A DNA stretch of 64,000 nucleotides from Candidatus Nitrosopumilus sp. SW. Lineage in GTDB: Archaea > Thermoproteota > Nitrososphaeria > Nitrososphaerales > Nitrosopumilaceae. Below the pieces are notes generated by a model. That model saw only the letters and a list, made by a program, of their open reading frames with translations. It ran no database searches and was not told where the DNA came from. Numbering within the stretch: the stretch's first letter is position 1; each line of letters opens with the position of its first letter. The position numbers were made by a program, and so were the translations under genes. Shown piece after piece: positions 40,648-44,065 of this stretch. The stretch is from NCBI RefSeq assembly GCF_006740685.1, contig NZ_CP035425.1, forward strand, positions 597,687-661,686. The letters are read 5' to 3'.

Positions 40648-40950
40648 TTATTTACTTTTATCCAATTTTCCTTCAATTTCTTCAAATGTCTCCATATTTA
40701 CTTCAAGAAAAGTAGAAATGAAAAACATGATACCATATTTTTCACCTGCTTTTGTTATCAAATTATTTTTTTCAAGAACTTTAATGTGATGTTGAATTGC
40801 TTTGTAATCAAGGCCCAACTCATTTGCTAATTGGTTAGTGTTTAATGGATTTTCTTTTAATTTTGAAATAATTTTTAATCTAGTCAGTCCTCCTCGAGAA
40901 CCAGCAAAAATGAACCAGAGTAATCTTTTTGCATCAGGATCATTTGCCAT
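40648..40950 (-). CDS. Winged helix-turn-helix regulator (ArsR/MarR-like)
   Basis: A 100-residue DNA-binding protein. The recognition helix region is LNTNQLANELGLDYKAIQHH, followed by the wing KVLEKNNLITKAGEKYGIMF. No Cys metal site of the ArsR kind is visible. It probably controls its own operon with the three-helix membrane protein downstream. Confidence 0.8.
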   Translation of the reverse strand: MANDPDAKRLLWFIFAGSRGGLTRLKIISKLKENPLNTNQLANELGLDYKAIQHHIKVLEKNNLITKAGEKYGIMFFISTFLEVNMETFEEIEGKLDKSK

Positions 40951-41049: not shown

Positions 41050-41931
41050 ATGATGTTAAATTATGATGCTCCTCTATACAGACCGCCTTCAGAAGCAAGA
41101 TCATTAATTTTTCAGGTTACATTAGGTTGTTCATTTAACGAATGTTCTTTTTGTGACATGTACAGATCAAAAGAATATTCAGAAAGACCATGGGATGAAG
41201 TAAAATCAGAAATCGACATGATGGCAAAATATTTACCAGATACTAGAAGAGTTTTTCTTGCAGATGGAGATGCATTAAATCTTGATTCTGAATATATGAT
41301 TAAAATTGTAAAATACATTAAAGAAAAATTTTCAAAGATTGAAAGAATTTCTTGTTATGCGATGCCCATGAACATTCTAAAGAAAACTTCTGAAGAATTA
41401 AAAAAAATGAATGAAGCTGGTCTTGACATGCTTTACTTGGGAATTGAAAGTGGTTCGGATATTGTTTTAAAAAAAGTGACAAAAGGAGCAATTGGAAAAA
41501 CCATCATTAAAGCAGTTAACAAAGCAAAAGATGCAGGTTATGTAATGTCATGTATGGTGATTTTAGGTTTGGGCGGTAGAAAATATTCAAAAGAACATAT
41601 CAAAGGCACTGCTGAAGTGATTAGTGCTTGTTCCCCAAATTATGTAGGTGCACTAACTCTTTATTTAGAAAATGGAATTAAACAAGAATTTCTTGACAAA
41701 TATGACGGAGAATTTGTAAGAATCAATGATGATGAATCATTAGAAGAATTACAAAGTTTGATTAAACAAATTGACACAAAAGATGAGATTGTATTTAGAG
41801 CAAATCATGGCTCAAATGCATATACCATAAAGGGTACTTTCCCCCAAGACAAACAAGAAATGTTAGATAAGATAGAATGGATGAAGCAACATCCAGAGAT
41901 TATGCGTCCTCAAGGATTAAGAGGATTCTAG
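41050..41931 (+). CDS. Radical SAM protein with CX4CX2C cluster motif
   Basis: A 293-residue radical SAM TIM-barrel enzyme. The cluster motif is GCSFNECSFCDMYR, i.e. CX4CX2C, one residue longer than the common CX3CX2C but usual for a COG1032-like subfamily. Later features are FLADGDALNL, GLDMLYLGIESGSD and VILGLGG. No B12 domain is present. Substrate unknown. Convergent with the His-containing secreted protein, overlapping by 4 nt. Confidence 0.83.
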   Translation: MMLNYDAPLYRPPSEARSLIFQVTLGCSFNECSFCDMYRSKEYSERPWDEVKSEIDMMAKYLPDTRRVFLADGDALNLDSEYMIKIVKYIKEKFSKIERISCYAMPMNILKKTSEELKKMNEAGLDMLYLGIESGSDIVLKKVTKGAIGKTIIKAVNKAKDAGYVMSCMVILGLGGRKYSKEHIKGTAEVISACSPNYVGALTLYLENGIKQEFLDKYDGEFVRINDDESLEELQSLIKQIDTKDEIVFRANHGSNAYTIKGTFPQDKQEMLDKIEWMKQHPEIMRPQGLRGF

Positions 41932-42380
41932 ACAAAATTTTCTTGATTCAGATACACTACTTTGAAAATATTTACTGAGTAATCTCCATCAAAGATCTTC
42001 TTTGTATTGCCATTTTCAGAATGCAATACTCTGAATTTGTATTCGTATTTTCCATCTTCTCCGACATCAGTCTGAGCAAAGTGAACGGCATCATTATTTT
42101 GAAAAATCTGAATTATTACTGGATATCCTTCAACATGGTTTGCAATTTTTCCTTCTACAAATCCCCATGGAAAAGCATTATCTTCAGGTGCATGAAAAAG
42201 AACAGTTGACTTTTCAAGACCAATCATTCCATTTAATGGGATAATTTCTGTTTGAGATTCATGTGTATGACCATTAATCAGGATTTGACCCAAGTGAGGG
42301 TGTGCAAAAACAGAATCCATAGAAAAGGGTAAAAACATTGCAATAACAAAAACACTTGAAAATAAAATAATTTTATTCAT
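41928..42380 (-). CDS. Secreted His-containing protein
   Basis: A 150-residue exported protein with a signal peptide (about residues 1-26, ending SVFA). The mature start AHPHLGQILINGHTHES has four His, which could bind copper or another metal, followed by a single beta-sandwich-like domain (EKSTVLFHAP ... KYEYKFRVLH). It is probably the last gene of the CcdA-YHS-thioredoxin-like operon, 38 nt after the previous gene. Function unknown. Confidence 0.68.
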   Translation of the reverse strand: MNKIILFSSVFVIAMFLPFSMDSVFAHPHLGQILINGHTHESQTEIIPLNGMIGLEKSTVLFHAPEDNAFPWGFVEGKIANHVEGYPVIIQIFQNNDAVHFAQTDVGEDGKYEYKFRVLHSENGNTKKIFDGDYSVNIFKVVYLNQENFV

Positions 42381-42418
42381 ATCAAAAACTCACTATAGTC
42401 CAATTTAAGATTTTTACT

Positions 42419-42670
42419 TTACAAATTATCAATTACAAATTTGAGATTATCAGGTAATTCAGGTAATTCAGTATGACTCTCATTATTTTGGAGAATTTCA
42501 GGACCAATTCTTCGTACTTTCTGAGTCCCTATCAAAGTGTCAATACTCATTTGGATATCTTTTTCTGATAAAATGGATTTTAGATTTTCAATAAGATTTT
42601 CTTCATTTTCATATTTTTTTATTCCATATTGAACAATAATCATTTTTTCATTCATTGAAAAATCTGTCAT
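42419..42670 (-). CDS. Hypothetical 83-residue protein in the thiol/metal operon
   Basis: A small cytosolic-looking protein without Cys, with an alpha/beta pattern (MIIVQYGIKKYENEENLIEN) and a C-terminus ELPDNLKFVIDNL. No family recognised. It is 32 nt after the thioredoxin-like gene and 38 nt before the secreted protein gene. Confidence 0.6.
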   Translation of the reverse strand: MTDFSMNEKMIIVQYGIKKYENEENLIENLKSILSEKDIQMSIDTLIGTQKVRRIGPEILQNNESHTELPELPDNLKFVIDNL

Positions 42671-42702
42671 TGTAAACTACAGATTTTTGCAGTGTAAAAA
42701 CA

Positions 42703-42933
42703 TTACTTGATATTTTGAAGTTTTTTTTCTAGTTCTTCAAATTTTGGAATTCCAATAAATTCTAATTTTTCATTAATGACCAAACCAGGAGCAGTAAATA
42801 TTGGGTATTTTTTTAAAAATTCAGGTTTTTCAGTAACATCAATAATTTCATATTCAATTTTAATTTCATTCAACATTTTTTCTAAAACATTACAATTAGA
42901 GCAACCAGGAGTAGTAAGAATTTGTACTTTCAT
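42703..42933 (-). CDS. Thioredoxin/glutaredoxin-like small protein (CSNC)
   Basis: A 76-residue thioredoxin-fold minimal protein with the redox pair CSNC at residues 10-13 (ILTTPGCSNC), cis-Pro in FTAPGLVI and normal beta-alpha order. It resembles MTH895-type redox proteins. The ATG overlaps the YHS stop (ATGA). It may pass electrons to or from the CcdA-like membrane protein upstream. Confidence 0.83.
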   Translation of the reverse strand: MKVQILTTPGCSNCNVLEKMLNEIKIEYEIIDVTEKPEFLKKYPIFTAPGLVINEKLEFIGIPKFEELEKKLQNIK

Positions 42934-43067
42934 GATTTTGTAAATTGGTCAGGGTTTTGCTCAAAGGCCCATCTACAAGATGCACAACAAAATCGATATT
43001 CTTTTCCATTATGAGTAAATATTTCTCCTTTTTCTCCTACTTCCATTCCACATACTGGATCTTTCAT
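42930..43067 (-). CDS. YHS-domain protein (45 residues)
   Basis: A stand-alone YHS domain: MKDPVCGMEV at the start, then GKEYRFCCASCRWAFEQNP. YHS domains are found in copper ATPases, mercury and other heavy-metal proteins and are taken to be metal sensors or carriers. Both ends overlap neighbours as ATGA (CcdA-like stop before, thioredoxin-like start after), so the three proteins are translationally coupled. Confidence 0.85.
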   Translation of the reverse strand: MKDPVCGMEVGEKGEIFTHNGKEYRFCCASCRWAFEQNPDQFTKS

Positions 43068-44065
43068 GCTACAACTTGGTTCTGGTTTCTCATATTAATC
43101 AAATACCAAATTACAGCAAATCCTATCAAACTAACTAGAATCAAAGGGGTAATCTCTTTTGAGAGATCGCCTTCAACATGTTCATGATCATGCATATGCT
43201 CATCCATCTCAAATTCAGAGGGAATAGGAGTTAACTCAACTAATCTATTCCATCCTTCATGAATGAAAGTTTCTTCATACCACTCATGTCCCTCCGGTAA
43301 TCCATTAATAATTAAAAATGAACCAATTATAATTAACATCCAACCTGTTGTTTTTTCAATTTTTATCTGATTTGTTGTCAAACCTTTTGTTGCATTAATT
43401 CCAATGATTGCAAGCACAGACATTAAGATCAAAGGAATTGCTCTGCCAATTCCATGTACAGCACCTAAGCTAGCACCAATTTCAACACTACCAGTTCCGG
43501 CAATGTAAATTAACAGCCAATAAAATAAAGGATTAGGACAACCAACACCAGCATTTCCTAATAACAATCCCATGAAAAATGATTTTGAATAGTCTCCACG
43601 TTTTTGAATAAATGTTGGAGTTCCAGAATAAGATGGAAGTTTTAATTTTAATAGTTTTAATTGAGATAAACCAAAAATAAATGCTGCAATTCCAGCAACT
43701 AAAAACATGTATGTTGAAATTTGATCAAGTTCTGCTGTTTGGCCAAGTATTCCAACACCTACGCCATAAGCTGTTATTGTAAGTGTTAATCCAACCCCAA
43801 ATAATAATGCCATATAGAGTCCTTTTTTGTGGCCTTTGCCCATACTCAATGGAACAATAATGAAAACCAATGGAAGAGTGCACGGAAGTACAATCATAGA
43901 TAATCCTGAGACATATGAGATAGCAATCCATGACGGATAGGATGGTTCTTGTCCTATATCAACAGCAATTTCGTTAGTTCCAGCATACATTATTCCTAAA
44001 AAAACTAAAGAAAATAGAATAAAACTAGACATTACAAGAATTTTCTTTGGAAAATATGTATCCAT
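43064..44065 (-). CDS. CcdA/DsbD-like transmembrane thiol transporter with His-rich tail
   Basis: A 333-residue polytopic protein. The conserved Cys-Pro motifs of CcdA/DsbD are present: IVLPCTLPLV in the early core and GVGCPNPLFYW in the later half. About eight membrane helices are predicted. A His/acidic segment (DEHMHDHEHVEGD) precedes the last helix, a likely metal-binding loop. It moves reducing equivalents across the membrane. It heads an operon with YHS and thioredoxin-like proteins. Confidence 0.85.
   Translation of the reverse strand: MDTYFPKKILVMSSFILFSLVFLGIMYAGTNEIAVDIGQEPSYPSWIAISYVSGLSMIVLPCTLPLVFIIVPLSMGKGHKKGLYMALLFGVGLTLTITAYGVGVGILGQTAELDQISTYMFLVAGIAAFIFGLSQLKLLKLKLPSYSGTPTFIQKRGDYSKSFFMGLLLGNAGVGCPNPLFYWLLIYIAGTGSVEIGASLGAVHGIGRAIPLILMSVLAIIGINATKGLTTNQIKIEKTTGWMLIIIGSFLIINGLPEGHEWYEETFIHEGWNRLVELTPIPSEFEMDEHMHDHEHVEGDLSKEITPLILVSLIGFAVIWYLINMRNQNQVVA

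Follow-up and report, generated by a model that had tools for sequence, protein, structure and literature searches.

Do the five genes that follow one another on the minus strand at positions 41928–44065 of a 64,000-nt stretch of archaeal DNA (hereafter, the window) form a single pathway that loads or detoxifies metal across the membrane? An earlier note on this DNA had proposed as much, and all five open reading frames were found where it had placed them. They encode a CcdA-like membrane thiol carrier (43064..44065, 333 aa; Pfam DsbD_TM, 9.6e-11), a stand-alone YHS/TRASH protein that putatively binds metal (42930..43067, 45 aa; Pfam YHS, 3e-13, and TRASH_HVO_1752_C, 3e-10), a CSNC thioredoxin/glutaredoxin-like protein (42703..42933, 76 aa; Pfam Thioredoxin_3, 2.2e-14), an 83-aa protein with no Pfam match (42419..42670), and a secreted beta-sandwich protein with a His-bearing N-terminus (41928..42380, 150 aa; no significant Pfam match). 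The ATGA overlaps reported between the CcdA and YHS genes and between the YHS and thioredoxin-like genes are both present in the sequence; we refer to these three genes as the triad. The host genome consists of one contig of 1.5 Mb, and its relatives are Nitrosopumilus-type archaea. A convergent radical SAM gene (41050..41931, plus strand; Pfam Radical_SAM) lies outside the system and is the first gene of a conserved chromosomal context. The same context includes a minus-strand gene for an ArsR-like winged-helix protein (40648..40950; Pfam HTH_5, 5e-11), which has no established tie to the triad.

The conservation of the gene order was assessed via homologues of the carrier. These were found at high score in 12 of 37 genomes of the same genus and in 83 of 400 genomes of the class (E ≤ 1e-10), all from the window's family except one from the same order. 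Three more distant genomes of the phylum also had homologues, two of them with CcdA followed by the thioredoxin-like gene and no YHS gene. The non-redundant set comprised 76 carrier loci, of which 72, almost all from Nitrosopumilaceae, had enough downstream sequence to be read. YHS directly followed CcdA in 58 of these 72, and the thioredoxin-like gene lay downstream in 55. Six loci had YHS without the thioredoxin-like gene at CcdA (L064, L068, L197, L198, L207, and L215), and four had neither nearby (L199–L202). The triad of CcdA, YHS, and CxNC thioredoxin is thus a conserved unit, far beyond chance, and to this extent the proposed synteny held. Gene calls in the fetched loci were mechanical open reading frames labelled by purpose-built profiles, and many of the genomes are drafts; tests of co-occurrence across genomes are indicative only, as the genomes are related and some are incomplete. 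A search of plasmids gave no match. Several contigs filed under bacterial names probably represent archaeal DNA placed in the wrong bins: triad-type archaeal contigs L052, L061, L065, and L075 came from bins named Amylibacter, Planctomycetota, Saprospiraceae, and Shewanella, and are most likely misbinned Nitrosopumilales DNA.

The synteny did not extend to all five genes as one unit. Of 61 relatives, 31 had the 83-aa gene. Many Nitrosopumilus genomes of the genus sample that have no triad carry this gene and the secreted-protein gene next to the radical SAM gene, and four genomes whose triads lie elsewhere (G013, G031, G032, and G034) keep the pair there too. Conversely, triads at other sites lacked the pair, and in five loci the 83-aa gene was divergent from the triad. 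A functional pathway made up of all five genes is therefore very improbable, even though in the window they share one strand, with gaps of only 32 bases between the thioredoxin-like and 83-aa genes and 38 bases between the 83-aa and secreted-protein genes. Two further observations speak for a link with the triad. In 24 of the 26 cases where both genes point the same way, the 83-aa gene starts 376–396 bases after CcdA, and an element upstream of this gene, conserved in genomes without a triad, is missing where a triad precedes it (positions 42671–42702 of the window). This near-constant spacing and the missing element make it plausible that the pair is co-transcribed with the triad in the window genome. 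We nevertheless rejected the five genes as one system, since the pair occurs independently of the triad. Given the tree, and since distant lineages also have CcdA at this site, loss or relocation of the triad in some Nitrosopumilus is as likely as its insertion before the pair.

The secreted protein had been described as beginning with four His. These are not consecutive: the predicted mature N-terminus is HPHLGQILINGHTHE, with four His within 14 residues. This N-terminus (HPH...HTHE) is conserved, with its conservation limited to close orthologues. The protein belongs to a family of secreted beta-sandwich proteins; its AlphaFold2 model is all-beta (pLDDT 78), and a fold search with the model gave no significant match.

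The carrier was assigned to its family on a score of 41.8 bits against the curated Pfam cut-off of 27.1 for DsbD_TM, a domain found in 20 of 20 homologues (E ≤ 0.01). Cys62 (LPCTLP) and Cys176 (GCPNP) were invariant in an alignment of 20 sequences; across the larger set, the Cys62-type motif was present in 69 of 76 homologues and the Cys176-type motif in 76 of 76. These are presumably the two active-site cysteines of CcdA, each next to a proline, and their helices would correspond to core TM1 and core TM4. The protein probably has eight transmembrane helices. The His/acidic loop claimed by the earlier note was confirmed at residues 257–302 (EHMHDHEH; EFEMDEHMHDHEHVEGD), and an HxH in the same tail recurs in 63 of 76 homologues. 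From the alternation of Lys/Arg-rich (positive-inside) loops and from helix prediction, we infer that this loop lies outside the cell and the C-terminus inside. The AlphaFold model is all helical (pLDDT 74) and had no significant Foldseek match. In the family tree, the window CcdA has a long branch (0.53 changes per column), which makes its position unsure; the nearest sequence is 73% identical.

The two small proteins of the triad have no signal peptide as judged by eye, and we take them to be cytosolic. The YHS protein has four conserved cysteines (DPVCGM...FCCASC). The active site of the thioredoxin-like protein is CSNC, its family being mostly CxNC, and its solved relatives are 1fo5 and MTH895 (1ilo). 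Sequence searches of the PDB with the YHS protein and with CcdA gave no useful match. A second stand-alone YHS protein is encoded in the window genome (G000:C1:1498329-1498454; L257:10321-10458), beside a DUF6659-like gene and without CcdA.

Next to the homologues of the triad, genes of copper type recur. The loci fall into two main settings. In setting A, the window type, the triad precedes the radical SAM, ArsR-like, and RNase H genes. Setting B is an island with genes for plastocyanin-like, trypsin-like PDZ protease, and Met-rich proteins, often a multicopper oxidase, and a regulator combining an AsnC-type HTH with an archaeal TRASH domain (Pfam AsnC HTH and Arc_trans_TRASH). A ZIP-like gene of the islands is named from its motif only and has no Pfam match. 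In setting B, a DsbA-like gene (CPNC, CSNC, or CPSC) of the same orientation precedes CcdA by about 67–112 bases; such island genes stand beside the triad in, for example, L030, L035, and L061. The 15-kb island of L246 combines the triad with genes for CopA, a multicopper oxidase, plastocyanin-like, Met-rich, and DsbA-like proteins, and an Lrp-TRASH regulator.

A full-length Lrp-TRASH regulator was found within 3.5 kb, in three orientations, in 18 of the 58 loci having both flanks; of the six full-length Lrp-TRASH genes in the Nitrosopumilus sample, five lay within about 3.3 kb of a triad. The regulator also occurs at setting-A loci: in sister genera, at the same chromosomal site as in the window, it is divergent from CcdA (L226, L228, L230, and L231, genus g24) or lies within the operon (L211), which ties the window's own site to the regulator. 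P1B ATPases with a CPC motif adjoin CcdA in L037, L197, L198, L209, and L210; in L208, the distance is 3.7 kb. A YHS motif starts the CPC-type P1B ATPases of L197, L198, L208, L246, and L248 (confirmed by Pfam for L246), where it replaces the usual heavy-metal-associated domain. No copper marker was nearby in 31 of the 58 loci having both flanks. In the window genome, a search for a full Lrp-TRASH regulator returned only matches to the HTH part, and no P1B copper ATPase or close CopA was found at E ≤ 1e-60. No DsbA-like gene lies beside the window triad; the genome has four such genes elsewhere, and the relative of the island protein is 59% identical, has the motif CHQC, and lies away from the triad. 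As the Lrp-TRASH regulators, CPC P1B ATPases, plastocyanin-like proteins, and multicopper oxidases all stand beside homologues, the metal linked to the triad is most likely copper, and the neighbourhood suggests a copper-handling module. Of the proposed metal pathway, then, the link to metal stood, by way of the copper-type neighbours, while the 83-aa and secreted proteins dropped out as members.

We consider it fairly probable that the triad is a copper-linked relay of thiol reduction across the membrane, which would keep the cysteines of copper sites reduced, with the YHS protein as a partner that binds Cu(I) in the cytosol. Thioredoxin reductase probably recharges the cytosolic CSNC protein; this protein would reduce the carrier, and Cys62 and Cys176 would hand the electrons outward, as expected from the CcdA/DsbD family. 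A DsbA-like thioredoxin outside the membrane would then be reduced. This partner could keep plastocyanin-like proteins, multicopper oxidases, or the terminal oxidase ready for copper loading by holding their copper-ligand cysteines in the reduced state, and could mend disulphides made by copper. The YHS protein may bind Cu(I) much as archaeal CopM does, and CcdA may have an extracytoplasmic metal site in its His loop. Published work is in keeping with this: CopR/CopT combines Lrp and TRASH domains and CopM is a TRASH copper chaperone in archaea (PMC7830388), ScsB holds the copper-binding ScsC in a reduced state (PMC8900818), and TlpA reduces ScoI and COX II during copper-site assembly (PMC6696091). 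Support also comes from the DsbD-family genes (arCOG02398) of Nitrososphaera viennensis, which are upregulated under copper limitation, although no DsbD-family response to copper limitation was seen in the marine N. maritimus (PMC7785015).

The triad may work like the bacterial Scs system or like CcdA with TlpA, and we filed it as neither. Scs (ScsB–ScsC, suppressor of copper sensitivity; PMC8900818) likewise uses a DsbD-type carrier to reduce an exported thioredoxin-fold protein in a copper-tied context, and the likeness extends to the copper islands, which carry a DsbA-like gene directly upstream of CcdA. The window carrier (333 aa), in contrast, lacks the alpha and gamma periplasmic domains, matching only DsbD_TM and DsbD_2, and has no ScsC-type DsbA-like gene alongside; the triad adds the cytosolic CSNC and YHS proteins, and its regulator is of archaeal type. 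With CcdA and its TlpA-type reductant and Sco (TlpA/Sco part: PMC6696091), the triad shares the CcdA core and the two active-site cysteines, and reduction of copper-ligand cysteines is a plausible outlet for it. No TlpA or Sco gene was recognised adjacent, however, and the triad has extra terminal helices, a His loop, and a YHS partner.

The archaeal cop cluster (CopR/CopT, CopM, CopA; PMC7830388) also includes a small TRASH/YHS protein, and many homologous loci have an Lrp-TRASH regulator, some of them a CPC ATPase as well. In the triad, CcdA and the CSNC thioredoxin replace or accompany CopA, and the window copy has no adjacent regulator or ATPase. The window copy was thus placed under neither Scs nor the cop cluster, as the defining features of each (periplasmic domains and adjacent ScsC; regulator and ATPase) are missing. 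The DsbD-family genes of N. viennensis (PMC7785015) resemble the carrier in encoding a CcdA/DsbD-type protein of an ammonia-oxidizing archaeon in a copper context, but carrier matches beyond the window's family were only weak or rare. No description of CcdA joined with YHS was found in the open-access literature searched, and one may exist elsewhere; the triad is thus a CcdA-family carrier in a gene combination for which we found no description.

Other readings of the same genes were weighed against the relay. The triad could serve general maintenance of extracytoplasmic thiols, acting on DsbA-like proteins under oxidative or nitrosative stress, with copper genes nearby only because copper stress oxidises thiols and with YHS as a redox or zinc protein. 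The numerous DsbA-like genes, the four of the window genome included, would fit such a role, as would the 31 of 58 loci without a copper marker, and gains of Dsb and Trx genes among these archaea have been interpreted as adaptation to stress (PMC7554672). We hold this to be rather unlikely, since the copper-type regulator (in three orientations) and CPC ATPases are recurrently adjacent and the YHS module also forms the N-terminus of CPC ATPases. Detoxification of mercury or arsenic, in a MerH-like or ArsEFG-like manner, is far less likely still. The ArsEFG organoarsenical system does pair a small thioredoxin-like protein with a permease of the CcdA superfamily, and archaeal mercury operons also contain small TRASH proteins. 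The window's thioredoxin-like protein matched the MTH895/ArsE model and its CcdA matched ArsG, but both fell short of the curated cut-offs (36.1 against 62 bits for ArsE and 28.9 against 200 for ArsG), and identity with ArsEFG was rejected on these scores. Moreover, the annotated neighbours are of copper type, and reading by eye turned up no mercuric reductase or arsenic gene among them.

Another reading makes the carrier itself a transporter or sensor of Cu(I), as a conduit partly replacing CopA where this is lacking. The outer HxH loop would receive copper, the membrane cysteine pair would reduce or relay it, and the YHS protein would take up Cu(I) inside. The recurrent HxH of the tail, the missing close CopA in the window genome, and the several lineages with CcdA–YHS and no thioredoxin-like gene are in keeping with this, and Cu(I) binding has been reported for ScsB (PMC8900818). 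The thioredoxin-like gene downstream in 55 of 72 loci, however, indicates a redox use, and CopA and CcdA occur together in several genomes. Both the conduit and this copper-sensing or copper-passing route therefore seem to us quite doubtful. If the latter were true, a redox carrier would replace a copper ATPase in ammonia-oxidizing archaea. We know of no CcdA-family member that is established as a metal carrier.

The relay that we favour bears on the copper economy of these organisms. Copper enzymes underlie nitrification in ammonia-oxidizing archaea, and the acquisition, loading, and tolerance of copper are poorly understood (PMC7785015). A conserved three-gene unit beside copper regulators and pumps is a concrete, testable candidate for copper handling in this group. 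As the triad is missing from many Nitrosopumilus genomes, the copper enzymes of these organisms can do without it. Variants of the carrier were also encountered. In L037 (8555-9964), L209, and L210, CcdA is 464–469 aa long, with an extra domain in the C-terminal loop, and adjoins a CopA ATPase and a divergent YHS–thioredoxin pair. The distant CcdA of L243 (4869-6343) has a loop rich in Cys (ECCIEPPCKTC), and the small secreted protein encoded after it shows a similar arrangement of Cys.
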